Source of the DNA: Candidatus Latescibacterota bacterium
GTDB lineage: Bacteria > JAAXHH01 > JABIQT01
Direction: 5' to 3'
NCBI GenBank assembly: GCA_018667995.1
Contig: JABIQT010000534.1
Coordinates: 1 to 10,823 of the forward strand
DNA length: 10,823 bases
Below the pieces are notes generated by a model. The model saw nothing but the letters and a program-made list of their open reading frames with translations. It searched no databases and was not told where the DNA came from. Made by a program: the position numbers and the translations under genes. Positions 3,457 through 10,823 of the stretch are shown one piece after another. Each line of letters opens with the position of its first letter. Positions within the stretch are counted from its first letter, which is position 1.

Positions 3457-3503
3457 CATGACACTGTCAGGTTATTTTCGGACAATGTGTCATGCCAGGC
3501 ATG
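3457..3503. promoter_or_regulatory. Nested inverted repeats, candidate enhancer/operator for the sigma-54 promoter
   Basis: Left arm CATGACACTGTC (3457-3468) and right arm GACAATGTGTCATG (3481-3494) are complementary over 12 pairs, with two unpaired bases in the right arm. The loop between them is 12 nt. The right arm runs straight into a second dyad, CATGCC-A-GGCATG (3491-3503). No T-run follows, so it does not look like a terminator. The centre is about 160-175 bp upstream of the -24/-12 element, which is where activators of sigma-54 promoters usually bind. The regulatory role is inferred from symmetry and distance. Confidence 0.4.
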
Positions 3504-3634: not shown

Positions 3635-3652
3635 TTGGCAAGGATGTTGCAT
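3635..3652 (+). promoter_or_regulatory. Sigma-54 (RpoN) type -24/-12 promoter
   Basis: The sequence TTGGCAAGGATGTTGCAT matches the known consensus YTGGCACG-N4-TTGCW at every defined base except one (A for C at the seventh). The invariant GG (3637-3638) and GC (3649-3650) are separated by exactly 10 bp as required. Transcription should start near 3661-3663, giving a leader of about 80 nt to the ATG at 3743. An AT-rich stretch and a dyad lie upstream, as expected for an enhancer-activated promoter. Confidence 0.7.
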
Positions 3653-3742
3653 ATGGAGAGAGACAGAACGGGACGACCCAGGAAACTGAAAAACATGGGA
3701 ACGATTTAGAGCAACCGAAGTAACACATACAGGAGACCAAAC

Positions 3743-3928
3743 ATGACAACGCTAACTTCAATGAAAAACTGGCTCGATGCGAAACTCGCCGAACACTGTG
3801 ACTGGTGGCAGCAGGAAATGATTCGCGAGACCGTTGACGAGATGGCAACGATCTCCGGTAGGTCTAGCAGGCCAGCCTATAGTGAGTACTTCGATTTTGC
3901 TCGCAACATGAAGGGACAGGCACACTAA
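3743..3928 (+). CDS. Small protein of 61 residues, unknown function
   Basis: The family was not recognised. The start is well supported: AGGAG at 3731-3735 lies 7 nt before the ATG. The product is short, has no signal peptide and no membrane segment. Residues 5-36 could form an amphipathic helix (MKNWLDAKLAEHCDWWQQEM), with three Trp and one Cys/His pair at 18-19. The second half is polar with an aromatic cluster (YSEYFDF, 46-52). The gene is a complete transcription unit: a sigma-54-type promoter lies about 90 nt upstream and a strong intrinsic terminator begins 58 nt after the stop. That packaging argues strongly for a real gene despite its size. A cytoplasmic regulatory or stress-response protein is possible but is a guess. 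The alternative is that the transcript acts as RNA and the ORF is incidental; the good ribosome site argues against this. Confidence 0.72.
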   Translation: MTTLTSMKNWLDAKLAEHCDWWQQEMIRETVDEMATISGRSSRPAYSEYFDFARNMKGQAH

Positions 3929-3986
3929 GAGAACCGTTAGACGCAGCAAGATTTACATTTTCACGGTATTACTCTGTTCGACGCCT

Positions 3987-4031
3987 AAGGAACCGGAAGT
4001 GGCCCGCTACCACTTCCGGTTCCTTTTTTTT
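3987..4031 (+). terminator. Strong Rho-independent terminator after the 61-codon gene
   Basis: The arms AAGGAACCGGAAGTGG (3987-4002) and CCACTTCCGGTTCCTT (4010-4025) form a perfect 16-bp stem around a 7-nt loop. An unbroken run of T reaches 4031. The A-rich foot also gives it some ability to stop transcription on the other strand. Confidence 0.95.
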
Positions 4032-4046
4032 ATGCCGTTCGGTTGG

Positions 4047-4075
4047 TTGACATGCCAATCCCATGTGATTAAGAT
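4047..4075 (+). promoter_or_regulatory. Sigma-70-type promoter, probably for recD2
   Basis: A perfect TTGACA (-35, 4047-4052) is followed after exactly 17 bp by TAAGAT (-10, 4070-4075, five of six consensus bases). It starts only 15 nt after the terminator of the preceding gene. The predicted start near 4082 would leave a leader of about 367 nt before recD2. Being a sequence match only, it is a candidate. Confidence 0.5.
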
Positions 4076-4448
4076 ATCTGGTCCTTGTGACGGCTAATCC
4101 TATAGGACGGCAAAGAGGTCCCGCCGAGCGTTATTAGTGGTTGTGGATATCCGCCCCCGTACCCTCACGGTGTACGAAACACCGTCGGCGACTGCGGTCT
4201 CGAAGAGACATGACGATTCCCTTAGGCCATCGTGTGTATCAGGAGGGTATTTTTCGTTCGTTTGTGGAAGGCGGTCTATTTGTTGTTCATTAAGCCGGAC
4301 GAGAATCGGATCGTCCTTTCTCTATTCTCGTATCAGTGTTGAGGCCATTATTTATGGGGCCAACGCATGGAATTTGTCGTCTCGTCCCCACGACTTATTT
4401 GTTTAGATTCTGCTTCCGCTTGAAATTGATAACCCCTGAGAGTTACGA

Positions 4449-6626
4449 ATGGACACCCTCGTTGGCAGCATAGAACGCATAACATTTCAGAGTTCCGAGA
4501 CGGGCTACACCGTGGCAAAACTGAGGCCGGAACTTAGGCTCTGCGAAACCACGGAGCGTCTCACGACAGTGGCATCGCGGGAGGGTCTCTTCTCTATTTT
4601 TGGCAATCTTGCATCACTGTCCGCGGGCGAGCGTGTTAAGATTGATGGCTATTGGATGACGCACGCCCGCCATGGACGTCAATTCAAAATTGTGGAATTC
4701 AAGGCCCTGCAGCCCTCGACAGTCGAAGGCATCACCAAGTACCTGGGTTCGGGCTTGATTAAAGGCATCGGCCCCGTGCGCGCGAAGATCATCGTGGATC
4801 ACTTCGGTACCGACACGCTTGACATCATTGATAGGCATCCCGATCGACTCTCAGAAGTTAAGGGAGTAGCCTTAAAGACATTGGATATCATTAAAAAGGG
4901 ATGGCGAGAGCAGAAACACATTCAGGAGGTGATGCAGTTTCTAATCTCTCACGATGTGAGCACTAGTTTTTCGGTGAAGATTTTTAAGACTTACGGCGAT
5001 GACGCCATTGAAAAGGTTACGGAAAATCCATATCGGCTCTCATCGGATATCTGGGGGGTGGGATTCAAATCAGCAGATCGCATCGCAAGGAATCTAGGCG
5101 TTGCGCCCAATTCGCCAGAGCGGATAGTTGCTGGGATACGATACGTACTTTCCCGCTTCACCGATGATGGACACGTGTACGTGCCGAACGCTGTCCTTAC
5201 GAAAGAAAGCCAGGCCACACTCGAGGTAGATGCCGAGACTATTCCAGTGGCCCTGAGCACGCTTGCTGCTGAAGACGAGGTCGTCATCGAAGGTGATCGG
5301 GTATATCTAACGCCCTATTTTCATGCGGAGCGCGGGATATCTCGTCATCTGAAACGGCTAATGGCCTCGAATCGAAGCACGAATCATTCACAGATTCTCG
5401 AGTCCGTCGAGCAAATTCAACGTGAACAGGGCGTACAATTCAACACCCGGCAACGCGAAGCCATTGTGGCTACGATCACTGGGTCAGTCCTCGTATTAAC
5501 TGGTGGACCTGGTACGGGTAAGACCACATGTACCCGCGGTATGCTATCCCTATTGATGTTATTTGATCAGCGAGTTCTATTGACGGCGCCCACCGGGCGT
5601 GCGGCAAAGCGTCTGACCGAAGTCGCAGGATCCGAGGCGAAGACCATTCACCGCCTACTTGAGTTCGGCCCCGATGGTGGATTTAAAAAGGGGAAAGACG
5701 ACCCTCTGGACACAGATGCGGTCATATTGGACGAAGTTTCAATGGTCGATACCGTTATTATGAACGCCCTGTTGCGTGCTATTCCTTCGCATGCACGTTT
5801 GATCATGGTCGGCGATGCGGACCAGTTGCCATCTGTTGGTGCTGGGAATGTACTTCATGATATTGTCGCATCGGATCATATCCCCGTCGTGCATCTAAAT
5901 GAAATCTTCCGCCAGGCCAGCGAGAGTGATATTGTGATGAACGCGCACATGATAAATCATGGTGAGATACCATCAATGTTCTCGCGGAAAGAAGGTGATT
6001 TCTTCTTCATTGAGGAGGACGATCCAAGTACCGTGCAGTCTATGGTTGTCGACTTATGCCTGCGACGCCTACCGGCTCGTTATAGATTCGACGCGATTGA
6101 GGATATTCAGGTTTTGTCCCCCATGTACCGTGGAGAAGTAGGTGTAGATCAGCTGAACGACGCACTTCAAGAGGCCCTGAATCCGAATACTGAGGCACTG
6201 AAGAGAGGCGACCGCGAGATTCGCGTGGGAGATAAGGTTCTTCAAACCAGAAATAACTACGACAAGATGGTTTTCAACGGCGATATAGGTCGGGTCGTCG
6301 GAGTGGATCAAGAATCGCAGACCGTCAATGTACTGTTCAGCGAGATTGTTGCGTACGAGCCCACAGAATTAGATGAACTGGTTCTCGCCTATGCGGTCAG
6401 CGTTCATAAGAGCCAAGGGGCGGAATATCCGGCAGTTGTGCTCCCTCTCTTAACCACTCACTATATGATGCTTCAGCGAAACCTGTTATACACCGCTGTC
6501 ACTCGTGCCCGGGCCCTGGTGGTGATTGTGGGCACACGAAAAGCGCTTGGTATTGCCATAAATAATGATACGGTTCGTGATCGATTTACGGGCCTTCGGG
6601 ACCGGCTTGTAGACGACGAACGCTAA
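4449..6626 (+). CDS. recD2: ATP-dependent RecD-like DNA helicase (RecD2, SF1B)
   Basis: The protein has 725 residues, the usual length for RecD2. The N-terminus (MDTLVGSIERITFQSSETGYTV) is the conserved N-terminal OB-like region of the family. It is followed by helix-hairpin-helix segments around 95-150 and 195-215. The helicase core contains FNTRQREAI (331-339, Q-motif-like), Walker A GGPGTGKTT (352-360), Walker B DEVSMVD (428-434), GDADQLPSVG (455-464), EIFRQ (485-489), SVHKSQG (651-657) and YTAVTRA (681-687). All appear intact. RecD2 proteins are 5'-3' helicases that work without RecBC in DNA repair and replication-fork maintenance; that role is family knowledge. The ATG at 4449 has only a weak GAGAG upstream but matches the family start. 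It appears to be a single-gene unit with a long leader. Confidence 0.96.
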   Translation: MDTLVGSIERITFQSSETGYTVAKLRPELRLCETTERLTTVASREGLFSIFGNLASLSAGERVKIDGYWMTHARHGRQFKIVEFKALQPSTVEGITKYLGSGLIKGIGPVRAKIIVDHFGTDTLDIIDRHPDRLSEVKGVALKTLDIIKKGWREQKHIQEVMQFLISHDVSTSFSVKIFKTYGDDAIEKVTENPYRLSSDIWGVGFKSADRIARNLGVAPNSPERIVAGIRYVLSRFTDDGHVYVPNAVLTKESQATLEVDAETIPVALSTLAAEDEVVIEGDRVYLTPYFHAERGISRHLKRLMASNRSTNHSQILESVEQIQREQGVQFNTRQREAIVATITGSVLVLTGGPGTGKTTCTRGMLSLLMLFDQRVLLTAPTGRAAKRLTEVAGSEAKTIHRLLEFGPDGGFKKGKDDPLDTDAVILDEVSMVDTVIMNALLRAIPSHARLIMVGDADQLPSVGAGNVLHDIVASDHIPVVHLNEIFRQASESDIVMNAHMINHGEIPSMFSRKEGDFFFIEEDDPSTVQSMVVDLCLRRLPARYRFDAIEDIQVLSPMYRGEVGVDQLNDALQEALNPNTEALKRGDREIRVGDKVLQTRNNYDKMVFNGDIGRVVGVDQESQTVNVLFSEIVAYEPTELDELVLAYAVSVHKSQGAEYPAVVLPLLTTHYMMLQRNLLYTAVTRARALVVIVGTRKALGIAINNDTVRDRFTGLRDRLVDDER

Positions 6627-6650
6627 ATGCGCGACGTGATGATCTTTATC

Positions 6651-6678
6651 TTGACATCCCATTTCAGAAATCTATTTT
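6651..6678 (+). promoter_or_regulatory. Sigma-70-type promoter for the transporter gene
   Basis: TTGACA (6651-6656), a perfect -35, is followed after 16 bp by TATTTT (6673-6678), a four-of-six -10. It lies in the 115-nt gap between recD2 and the transporter. Transcription would begin near 6685, some 57 nt before the GTG start. Confidence 0.45.
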
Positions 6679-6730
6679 TGCTTTACCGTAAAACAAGACG
6701 AACATCATTTGTCTCATAACAACCCTGTAT

Positions 6731-6738
6731 GGAGGTGA
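6731..6738 (+). promoter_or_regulatory. Perfect Shine-Dalgarno sequence that fixes a GTG start
   Basis: GGAGGTGA is fully complementary to the usual 3' end of 16S rRNA and its GGAGG core lies 6 nt before the GTG at 6742. It decides the start of the transporter in favour of this GTG over the internal ATG at residue 35. Confidence 0.85.
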
Positions 6739-6741
6739 CGC

Positions 6742-8760
6742 GTGGCCGTTCCTGAGGAGCGAATCCACGACGAGGACGACGAGCAACCGGCAGAAGAAGC
6801 TCTGTTCGGTGCGCCCGACGATCCCTACGAGCCTGGCTTCAACATGAAGACCATCTGGGCCTGCCTTTTCGTGGGGTTCGTCATGTTGCCGGGTTCTATC
6901 TATCTCAGCCTGGTTACCGGTGGCCAAACTGGCGCTGCAGATTGGGTAACCGTTATCCTGTTTCTGGAAATCGCCAAGCGATCTCTCGTGAAACTGACCC
7001 GGCAGGAGATTATAATCCTGTACTGGGCAGCGGCAGGGCTTGCGGCGGCCGGTAATGCCATGAATACCGGGGTTACAGGTGGTCCGTTCGCGCATCTTAT
7101 CTGGGAACAGTATTTTATACAGGCCCCTGAGTCCACAGGCCTCGCGCAGTTTATTCCTACCTGGGTTGTCCCCCAACCTGGATCAGCATCTCTGGCGGCC
7201 CGATCGTTCTTCCACATTGAATGGCTTGTCCCGATCGCGGTGTTGACGGCGGTCACGCTGCTCTTCACGATAAATTCCCTGTCGATGGGTTATTTCCTGT
7301 TCCGTGTCACCAGTGACGTAGAACGTCTTCCGTTCCCGCTCGCCTCGGTCCAGGCCGGTGGTGCGACAGCCCTCGCGGAGACCTCTTCGAAGTCGGAAGG
7401 CTGGAGATGGCGGGCGTTTAGTATAGGTACGGTAATCGGTGTATCCTGGGGGTTGATCTATGTCGTTATTCCAATCCTCTCCAGTACGTTCCTGGTTACC
7501 CCGATCAACATTCTGCCTATTCCGTTTATAGATTTCACGGTCAGCTTCAAGAGTGTCCTTCCCGCTACCATGATAGGTATAGGTACGGATCTTGGGCTTC
7601 TTATCGTCGGATTTGTTTTACCATTCTGGGTTGTTGTTGGTTCGTTCGTTTCCTCAGCGGCAAGTGCCATCATCGCCAATCCGTTGTTGTATAACGCAGG
7701 GATTTTGAAGACGTGGGAACCCGGCATGTCCATGATTCCTACTCAGATTGCCAATAGCATCGATTTCTGGCTTAGCTTTACCATAGGCTCTTCACTGGTT
7801 ATCGGGATCGTTGGAATGGCGGGAACGGTCAAGGCTCTTATACAGAATTCTCGGCAGAAAAAGGAGAATGAGGAAGGCCAATCGTCCCTATTCGATCCTC
7901 CCAAGGGGCGAGGGGATATTTCTCTCAAGACCGTTCTCGTGATCTGGTTTCTCAGCACTACCGGATTTGTAGCAATGATCTATTATCTTATTCCAGATTT
8001 CCCCGTTTGGATTACCGCAATATTCGGCTACCTGTGGTCCCCCATATTCTCGTATATAGGTGCGCGAATGGTAGCCATCACGGGTTCTCCCTATGGCTCA
8101 TCTTTTCCGTATGTGAAAGAGGCGTCTTTCTATCTATCAGGCTACAAAGGGGCAGCAGTGTGGTTTGCTCCGATTCCAATATTTGAACACGGTCCGGTGG
8201 CTTCTACGTTCAAACAACTCGAATTAACGAAGACATCCTTTGGCAGTCTGATCAAGCTCAACCTAGTGACTATGGTCATGATGTTCGTCTGTAGTTTCCT
8301 TTTCTATTCTCTCATTTGGAAGCTCAATCCTATACCTTCTGCAGCCTATCCGTTTACACAGAAGATGTGGCCCCTGAATGCTACCATGCGAGCAATATGG
8401 GTTAAGACGACACTGCCGGGCGAATCCAATTTCCTCCTGGAAGTTATTAATCCGAGTTATATATTCGCAGGTCTGATTGGCACTGGTGGCATCTACGGCC
8501 TCGTTACACTGCTGGGTGCCTCTCCCCTGTTCTTCTACGGCTTTGTAGGTGGATTGGCGGCACCCATGTGGAATACCATGCCCACGTTCATCGGAGCAAT
8601 ACTGGGCCGTTATTACTTCACCAAGCGATTTGGTCAGGAGAAATGGAGAGCTTACGTTCCAATTGTTGCGGCCGGCTATGGTGCCGGCATCGGACTGATC
8701 GGAATGACAGCGATCGCCATCGCACTAATATCCAAGGCCATTTCTCAGATCGTATATTGA
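6742..8760 (+). CDS. Large multipass membrane protein, OPT-like / DUF6785-type putative transporter
   Basis: The protein has 672 residues starting at GTG with a perfect ribosome site. A very acidic cytoplasm-like tail of about 33 residues is followed by roughly 12-14 hydrophobic segments (about 36-58, 66-107, 160-187, 226-250, 272-318, 342-365, 395-445, 505-526, 570-622, 638-665). A polar charged loop lies at 366-392. Motif-like stretches include VERLPFPLASVQAGGA (193-208), the acidic-Gly turn GIGTDLGLL (279-287) and ASAIIANPLLYNAG (307-320). The layout and the LPFPLA segment recall the oligopeptide transporter (OPT) superfamily and the large DUF6785/DUF6784 membrane proteins of Planctomycetes and Poribacteria-like bacteria. 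This assignment is from memory of the families and has not been tested by a search. The substrate is unknown. It appears to be transcribed alone, with a promoter upstream and a hairpin after the stop. Confidence 0.82.
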   Translation: MAVPEERIHDEDDEQPAEEALFGAPDDPYEPGFNMKTIWACLFVGFVMLPGSIYLSLVTGGQTGAADWVTVILFLEIAKRSLVKLTRQEIIILYWAAAGLAAAGNAMNTGVTGGPFAHLIWEQYFIQAPESTGLAQFIPTWVVPQPGSASLAARSFFHIEWLVPIAVLTAVTLLFTINSLSMGYFLFRVTSDVERLPFPLASVQAGGATALAETSSKSEGWRWRAFSIGTVIGVSWGLIYVVIPILSSTFLVTPINILPIPFIDFTVSFKSVLPATMIGIGTDLGLLIVGFVLPFWVVVGSFVSSAASAIIANPLLYNAGILKTWEPGMSMIPTQIANSIDFWLSFTIGSSLVIGIVGMAGTVKALIQNSRQKKENEEGQSSLFDPPKGRGDISLKTVLVIWFLSTTGFVAMIYYLIPDFPVWITAIFGYLWSPIFSYIGARMVAITGSPYGSSFPYVKEASFYLSGYKGAAVWFAPIPIFEHGPVASTFKQLELTKTSFGSLIKLNLVTMVMMFVCSFLFYSLIWKLNPIPSAAYPFTQKMWPLNATMRAIWVKTTLPGESNFLLEVINPSYIFAGLIGTGGIYGLVTLLGASPLFFYGFVGGLAAPMWNTMPTFIGAILGRYYFTKRFGQEKWRAYVPIVAAGYGAGIGLIGMTAIAIALISKAISQIVY

Positions 8761-8781
8761 TGTAAAGAAATCACTTGTGAG

Positions 8782-8825
8782 CGCAAAGAGGGCAACTGAC
8801 TATATAGTCGGTTGCCCTCTTTGCG
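8782..8825 (+). terminator. 44-nt near-perfect palindrome, probable bidirectional terminator
   Basis: Outer arms CGCAAAGAGGGCAAC and GTTGCCCTCTTTGCG (15 bp) flank, through one T-G pair, the central palindrome GACTATATAGTC. The RNA could form about 20 bp around a 4-nt loop. It sits 21 nt after the transporter stop, which fits a terminator. The T-run is only three bases and lies within the stem foot, so termination strength is uncertain. Confidence 0.7.
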
Positions 8826-9044
8826 TTGGGGGCCAGTTGATAGTACAAAGGGCAATAATGGGTGTATTGAAAAGTATCACCGCTTTAAGATAGTTAATTT
8901 CAACACTTTATGATTTCGTGCTAAATATGTGTATGTTTTAAAATACGAATAGCTGGGCCACGGTCAGAAATCGAGGCCATTCTTGCTGTAGAAATGGACT
9001 GTAAGTTGTTGGTGGTTAACAATTAAGATTTAGCAGGGGTTTTG

Positions 9045-9062
9045 TTGGCATGGATTCTGCAT
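9045..9062 (+). promoter_or_regulatory. Second sigma-54 (RpoN) type -24/-12 promoter
   Basis: TTGGCATGGATTCTGCAT keeps the invariant GG (9047-9048) and GC (9059-9060) exactly 10 bp apart. It differs from YTGGCACG-N4-TTGCW at two bases. It shares 14 of 18 positions with the promoter at 3635-3652. The predicted start near 9072 gives a leader of about 84 nt to the ATG at 9156, almost the same as for the 61-codon gene. Confidence 0.6.
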
Positions 9063-9155: not shown

Positions 9156-10085
9156 ATGGGACCCCTGTTCCGAAAGTTCGTCCTGGCACTGACGGCCGTA
9201 TCCTGCACCACCGGTTTGTCAGCCCAGTCGGAGATCTCAGATGAGATATTCTCGGACAACAAACAGCCCGTCATACTCGAACTGAAGAATATCGAGCGCA
9301 TGCAGTACACGGTTTACGTGGATGCCCGGCCGGCTACTACGGTCGAGGGATATAAATTGAACCCCAATAAAGCCTGGTCACGAACCGACGAAAGGGTGGA
9401 ATCCCGCACGGTGATATTAGACAATCTTGATCCGGGACTGCATACGGTAATCATAGACGCCAAGCAGGAACCACATCCAAGGAAAGCCCAGCGTCGCGAG
9501 GAGTTCCTATTCGAATATGAGCCCCTGATTTTCACTATTAACGCCGATCCCTCGGCCATGACGACCCACACGATCGATGTTCATTCGGGCCTTCAGAGCA
9601 AAGTGGTTGCAAACAACGCGTTCGTGTTTACCAAGGGGCTCGATAAGGATTGGCAGTCGGTGGTCGAAAGAATTGCTGGCTCTAAGCTCGAAGTACGCGT
9701 ACGTCAGTATCGAGAAAAAGATAAGATCGGTCGGGTCAAACGCCGATTGGATAGCAAAGGGATGTGGGACAGAGCGAAGAAATACATAAACTACGTAGAT
9801 ATCAACGTCTTCATGGATGGCAGATTGGTACTTGATGTGGACCAGGTGGCGTATTCGGGACGGGTAGAGTACAGGTACTGGGATTACCTGGAGGGAAAAT
9901 GGTGGAACAATCATTTCCTGAACAATACAATAAAGGATGAGCAGAGAATCTATCAGTTCGTCAGGGCGTTACCTTTGAGCAACACCCATGAATTGAGGAT
10001 TACCGGCTATGATGAAGAGATTTCCTATTCGGTAATTCGTACCGGGAGCCTGCCGCAGATTGTATCCGCAGGGGATGCCGATTGA
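9156..10085 (+). CDS. Secreted protein of unknown function with two PEGA-like beta halves
   Basis: The protein has 309 residues, with AAGGAGG 7 nt before the ATG. The N-terminus (RKFVLALTAVSCTTGLSA) is a signal peptide with probable cleavage after Ala23. A lipoprotein cleavage at Cys17 is less likely because the lipobox is poor. Residues 50-102 read YTVYVDARPA followed later by VILDNLDPGLHTVIIDA. Residues 212-285 read NYVDINVFMDGRL followed later by FVRALPLSNTHELRITGYD. Both halves thus have a short strand with a D-(A/G)-R turn and then a 'leucine/proline, H, alternating hydrophobics' strand, as in PEGA-type carbohydrate or peptidoglycan-associated domains. A basic stretch (185-210) links the halves. 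No catalytic motif or membrane segment other than the signal was seen, so it is likely periplasmic or envelope-bound. The family was not recognised. The sigma-54-type promoter upstream suggests conditional expression. Confidence 0.85.
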   Translation: MGPLFRKFVLALTAVSCTTGLSAQSEISDEIFSDNKQPVILELKNIERMQYTVYVDARPATTVEGYKLNPNKAWSRTDERVESRTVILDNLDPGLHTVIIDAKQEPHPRKAQRREEFLFEYEPLIFTINADPSAMTTHTIDVHSGLQSKVVANNAFVFTKGLDKDWQSVVERIAGSKLEVRVRQYREKDKIGRVKRRLDSKGMWDRAKKYINYVDINVFMDGRLVLDVDQVAYSGRVEYRYWDYLEGKWWNNHFLNNTIKDEQRIYQFVRALPLSNTHELRITGYDEEISYSVIRTGSLPQIVSAGDAD

Positions 10086-10105
10086 GGAAGTAGTCAGTTC
10101 ACCAC

Positions 10106-10138
10106 AAGGCCCCGGTGTGCTAGCGCTCCGGGGCCTTT
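10106..10138. terminator. GC-rich hairpin between convergent genes, probable bidirectional terminator
   Basis: AAGGCCCCGG (10106-10115) pairs perfectly with CCGGGGCCTT (10128-10137). The 12-nt interior can pair further (GTGC with GCGC). It lies 20 nt after the secreted-protein stop and 38 nt beyond the end of the permease on the other strand. The A-rich foot and TTT tail suit termination from both sides, although the T-run is short. Confidence 0.8.
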
Positions 10139-10175
10139 CCTGTTTCAGGAGTACTGTGGACTGTAACGCAGATAG

Positions 10176-10823
10176 TCAATCGTCTGGGGGGGATGTTGCA
10201 TGGGATAACGCAATGAATCGTTTATAGTAGGAGTATATTAGAAAGGTAATCGGAAGCGCGATTATCAGTCCCAACATCCCGAGCAGTTTTCCCCAGATCG
10301 ATAGTGACAACAGAATCACAGCTGGATTGAAGCCTGTTACCTGTCCCATTATCCTGGGCACGAGCAGACCGTCCTGAATCAACTGCACAACCGCGAAGAT
10401 GGCGAGTACAAGTATTATCATTCCCCATGGACTCGAACCGGTCTCCAGCGATGACATCAGGGCGAAAGCCACAGCCGGTACGATTCCAATGACCTGAAGA
10501 TAGGGTACCATATTCAGCAACCCAACAAAGAGCCCGAGCAGCACTCCCATGGGTAGATCTATCGCCCAGAAGCCGATTGCGAATAGGATCCCAACTATGA
10601 AGGCGATGAGAGCCTGTGCCCGGAAGTAATTCTGCATCGCGGTTGTGAAATCGCTCAACACCGCAAGGACAGTCTCCCTATAGTCAGGTGGGATGAGGTC
10701 CTTCCAACCTTCCGACACTTCATCAAAATCCAGAAGAATGAAGATCAGGTACATCAGCACGATAATCAGACCGAAAAGCCCGATAACAAAACTGATAGTG
10801 CCCGAAAAAACACCCCATACACC
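10176..10823 (-). CDS. AI-2E / PerM family transporter, C-terminal part, cut by window edge
   Basis: The frame is open from the right edge to the TGA at 10176, giving the last 215 residues. It continues upstream of GTG 10760 without a stop, so the true start is outside the window. The visible part has the family's C-terminal pattern. One hydrophobic stretch contains FRAQALIAFIVGILFAIGFW. It is followed by LLGLFVGLLNMVPYLQVIGIVPAV, then VVQLIQDGLLVPRIMG, and a final pair of segments ending LLGMLGLIIALPITFLIY. The PxIMG and GMLGLIxALP segments are hallmarks of PF01594 proteins. Members export autoinducer-2 or act as sodium/proton antiporters or general permeases, so the substrate is open. It converges on the secreted-protein gene with 90 nt between them. 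Confidence 0.92.
   Translation of the reverse strand, partial: GVWGVFSGTISFVIGLFGLIIVLMYLIFILLDFDEVSEGWKDLIPPDYRETVLAVLSDFTTAMQNYFRAQALIAFIVGILFAIGFWAIDLPMGVLLGLFVGLLNMVPYLQVIGIVPAVAFALMSSLETGSSPWGMIILVLAIFAVVQLIQDGLLVPRIMGQVTGFNPAVILLSLSIWGKLLGMLGLIIALPITFLIYSYYKRFIALSHATSPPDD

Follow-up and report, generated by a model that had tools for sequence, protein, structure and literature searches.

Two -24/-12 elements of the sigma-54 type were distinguished in the window (the whole analysed stretch of 10,823 nucleotides, contig C732 in full, from a draft genome of 6.06 Mb and 1165 contigs), and these are probably separate sigma-54 promoters, each giving one monocistronic transcript and most likely responding to different activators. 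The function of the sites, their start points and the assignment of activators are what we infer. According to the proposed mechanism, sigma-54 RNA polymerase would remain poised on the -24/-12 element, and the promoter would be opened by an AAA+ activator bound upstream: (i) site 1 would drive a 61-aa ORF as a single-gene transcript ended by a terminator (3987-4025), under an activator that, as at the pilin promoters, reads elements of the TGACA/TGTCA type located around -140 to -180, while (ii) site 2 would drive a gene for a 309-aa exported protein, also as a single-gene transcript, ended by a hairpin (10106-10137), and would most likely answer to an activator other than that of site 1. Sigma-54 dependence, the part of an earlier note on this DNA that stands, is supported by the presence of rpoN, 22 activator-domain matches, the enrichment of strict sites and promoter-like placement, whereas the small regulon under one activator proposed in the same note is not supported. 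The case for separate activators is drawn from the lack of a common upstream element, the occurrence of TGACA/TGTCA words at site 1 only, and the likeness of the site 1 upstream block to pilin regions. Both sites are probably unremarkable members of the sigma-54 set of this genome, serving mostly ordinary gene regulation, and through them two orphan genes from an uncultured lineage gain a likely mode of control.

Site 1 (TTGGCAAGGATGTTGCAT, 3635-3652) and site 2 (TTGGCATGGATTCTGCAT, 9045-9062) lie on the plus strand and outside long ORFs, with GG and GC separated by ten bases (3637-3638 and 3649-3650 in site 1, 9047-9048 and 9059-9060 in site 2). With respect to the sigma-54 consensus mrNrYTGGCACG-N4-TTGCWNNw, as quoted in PMC2725144, they carry one and two mismatches, respectively: both deviate from it by an A or T in place of the C of CACG, and in site 2 the first T of TTGC is also replaced by C. 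Nothing else in the window fits TGGCANGNNNNNTGCA with zero mismatches, and a weight matrix built from 23 further sites in this genome ranks site 2 (16.2 bits) first and site 1 (14.7 bits) second in the window. These values fall in the low tail of the genome's site scores (jackknife range 11.8-23.3), and the matrix penalises any core deviation because its training sites were selected by exact core match. The distance to the start codon is 91 nt for site 1 and 94 nt for site 2, so that leaders of approx. 81 and 84 nt are obtained if transcription begins about 12 nt after the GC; the predicted transcript starts lie near positions 3662 and 9072. The start codons are preceded by the ribosome-binding sequences CAGGAG (61-aa ORF) and AAGGAGG (309-aa gene). 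The coordinates and strand of the sites, the GG/GC spacing, the non-coding location, the mismatch counts, the leaders of about 80-85 nt and the good ribosome sites had been described in the earlier note and are confirmed here. A third partial core (TGGGGGGGATGTTGCA, 10185-10200; two mismatches), placed inside the end of a minus-strand AI-2E transporter-like gene, probably arose by chance. No Rfam families were found in the window.

Two checks suggested by the earlier note gave positive results. The rpoN gene is present in the genome, in pieces on two contigs (core-binding domain PF04963 on C652 and the C-terminal DNA-binding end, PF04552, on C643), and 22 matches to the AAA+ activator domain PF00158, 21 of them strong, were identified. 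The genome was scored by pattern searches with reversed-pattern controls, and the loci were retrieved. The strict pattern TGGCAYRNNNNTTGCA occurs 23 times, compared with 1 occurrence of the reversed control, and this excess is the largest among 16 genomes of the phylum, i.e., sigma-54 sites are strongly enriched here relative to the compared genomes. A looser pattern gave 46 matches vs. 23 reversed controls; the weaker sites alone (looser minus strict), to which both window sites belong, show no excess as a class (23 vs. 22 controls). The sigma-54 set of the genome comprises about two dozen sites and some 20 activators.

The equality of the weaker class with its controls is an argument for the explanation that at least one of the two sites matches by chance and that the genes are read from other promoters, e.g., of the sigma-70 type, which we consider rather unlikely. 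In shuffled windows the mean number of matches scoring at least as high as site 2 was 0.02, and as site 1, 0.05; if the latter rate per 10.8 kb holds, about 28 chance sites as good as site 1 or better would be expected per genome. Weak sigma-70-like candidates do exist upstream of the genes (3458-3486 and 8867-8914), but such matches are no commoner than in shuffles. Against chance stands also the joint occurrence of two such sites in the window, which was seen in none of 100 shuffles, and their placement. The latter was evaluated with a single script for all sites, a site counting as promoter-like if it fell in no called gene and was followed at 15-260 bp by an RBS-supported start. This was the case for 12 of the 23 strict sites, 4 of the 23 weaker ones and 1 of the 23 reversed-pattern controls, these being small numbers obtained with a crude gene caller. 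The four weaker sites are site 1, site 2, a pilin promoter and a site before a response-regulator gene. This suggests that around three in four of the promoter-like weaker sites are real, and each window site is, taken singly, quite likely a true promoter.

Genes located downstream of the other sites of the genome encode two pilins (N_methyl), two universal stress proteins, a Glu/Leu/Phe/Val dehydrogenase-type (glutamate-dehydrogenase-type) protein, a response regulator, a SpoIIE-type regulator, a sigma-54 activator, and Wzz-type, HlyD, outer-membrane efflux and histidine-kinase-type proteins. The two pilin genes (loci L012 and L027) are situated on different contigs, have near-identical N-termini, and each lies behind a separate sigma-54 site that has dense clusters of TGACA/TGTCA upstream of it.

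The presumed targets of the window promoters are both orphans. The 61-aa ORF (3743-3928, plus strand) has coding-like codon use (0.11; intergenic values average -0.10 and reach 0.04 at most), and its single-sequence AlphaFold model predicts a two-helix protein (helices 2-38 and 43-58; mean pLDDT 80), a simple helical hairpin of a kind common to many unrelated proteins. It is followed by a strong intrinsic terminator (3987-4025, plus strand), composed of a 16-pair stem-loop and a T run. The 309-aa gene (9156-10085, plus strand), also coding-like in codon use, encodes a predicted exported protein with an N-terminal signal and with Cys18 within a weak lipobox-like sequence AVSC; prediction from the single sequence gave no usable fold (pLDDT 39.5, a model too poor for a structure search). 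A GC-rich hairpin (10106-10137, plus strand; fold of 10080-10150, -32.1 kcal/mol) is the probable terminator of this gene. As the earlier note had stated, both genes are unrecognised: neither protein matched Pfam, NCBIfam or PDB entries, and no relatives were detected in 15 other genomes of the phylum, nor for the 309-aa protein in wider genome contigs and plasmids or for the 61-aa protein in viral contigs. The gene preceding site 2 (6742-8760) encodes a multi-pass membrane protein of 672 aa for which Pfam and NCBIfam gave no match and whose only named relative found, a protein of a Candidatus Zixiibacteriota MAG, is 74% identical over the full length; it is predicted to represent a conserved, unnamed, transporter-like family. 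In that MAG the neighbouring 309-aa gene is missing, and another gene follows instead.

Upstream of site 1, approx. 140-180 bp from the core, lies a block (CATGACACTGTCAG ... GGACAATGTGTCATG, 3457-3494, strand unspecified) which may constitute the activator-binding region of this promoter. It has inverted arms (CATGACAC and GTGTCATG, 3457-3464 and 3487-3494), TGACAC/GTGTCA words at about -140 to -180, and one copy of TGACA-N3-TGTCA with one mismatch (3480-3492), for which no 41-bp partner was found. When the block was compared with 23 upstream regions of the genome, the two pilin regions ranked first and second (p 0.007 and 0.013 vs. random stretches); this likeness is based on short words and was noticed only after looking, and we therefore treat it as a lead. 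A further-reaching interpretation, namely that the 61-aa ORF encodes an unrecognised small protein co-expressed with the type IV pilins of this lineage via a common TGACA/TGTCA-reading activator, seems improbable; if true, the protein may act in pilus assembly or surface behavior.

The region preceding site 2 is separated from the 672-aa gene by a long hairpin (8780-8827, plus strand; fold of 8755-8830, -42.3 kcal/mol), which would end the upstream transcript. Within 300 bp upstream of site 2 no TGACA or TGTCA words are present, and no activator-binding element was recognised; the similarity of this region to the promoters at L058, L025 and L008 is near chance (p 0.02-0.07 among 23 comparisons). 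A search for an element common to the 260 bp before the two sites yielded nothing above shuffles (best ungapped match 9.5, shuffled mean 8.5). The cores, which the earlier note regarded as matching, agree at 4 of 7 variable positions, a level equalled or exceeded by 29% of the other site pairs in the genome, and for this reason the spacer GGAT present in both sites was rejected as a sign of co-regulation. That one activator drives both genes, as a regulon of two or a few genes in which an internal protein is tied to an envelope protein, is very unlikely: the sites do share the core type, the strand and similar leaders and are 5.4 kb apart on one contig, but many pairs in the genome are equally alike, the leader lengths are typical of its other sites too, no upstream word is held in common, the TGACA/TGTCA elements of site 1 are missing at site 2, and the genome-wide set has about two dozen sites with some 20 activators. 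A promoter type in common should not be taken as an activator in common, and here the upstream elements separate the two genes.

Two separately activated sigma-54 promoters would resemble known systems in several respects. As in the RpoN regulons of Geobacter sulfurreducens (PMC2725144) and Desulfovibrio vulgaris (PMC4641369), the sites have a GG-N10-GC core, an intergenic position and a short leader, the genome encodes RpoN and many activators, and its target classes include pili and transport; unlike in these regulons, the target genes of the two putative window promoters have no detectable relatives. The TGACAC/GTGTCA words of site 1, found also at the two pilin promoters of this genome, are reminiscent of pilin systems, although the target of site 1 is a 61-aa orphan ORF and not a pilin, and PilR binding is putative. 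The half-site recognised by PilR is TGTC. Pilin promoters controlled by PilR-type sigma-54 activators occur in Pseudomonas, Geobacter and Myxococcus, according to the reports cited in PMC3333781.

Elsewhere in the genome, a group of loci fits the idea of a small one-activator regulon better than the window pair does. The exact sequence TGACA-N3-TGTCA occurs at 9 places (5 for the reversed control), five of which lie before sigma-54 sites. Dyads repeated every 41-43 bp, some copies with 1-2 mismatches, are present at L025 (1592/1633/1674), L029 (499/540/582), L063 (1040/1083/1124), L103 (1460/1501/1542) and L106 (1374/1415), and this arrangement resembles a series of binding sites for a single activator. 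The arrays at L025, L029 and L063 are located upstream of the sigma-54 sites of universal stress protein, dehydrogenase-type and response-regulator genes. In being multi-copy, close to sigma-54 sites and associated with universal stress protein targets, they resemble the NtrC-like array of NmpR, composed of GCGCA-N5-TGCGC dyads and likewise acting on a universal stress protein gene (PMC11841059), but their sequence is different, and so is their spacing (41-43 bp). Such an array (two or more dyads 41-43 bp apart) is absent from both window promoters, site 1 carrying a single imperfect dyad and site 2 none. At L008, an inverted repeat with 17-base arms (TGGTCGATAATGACCA...TGGTCATTATCGACCA) is located approx. 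150 bp upstream of a sigma-54 site preceding a response-regulator/activator gene, a case of possible autoregulation.
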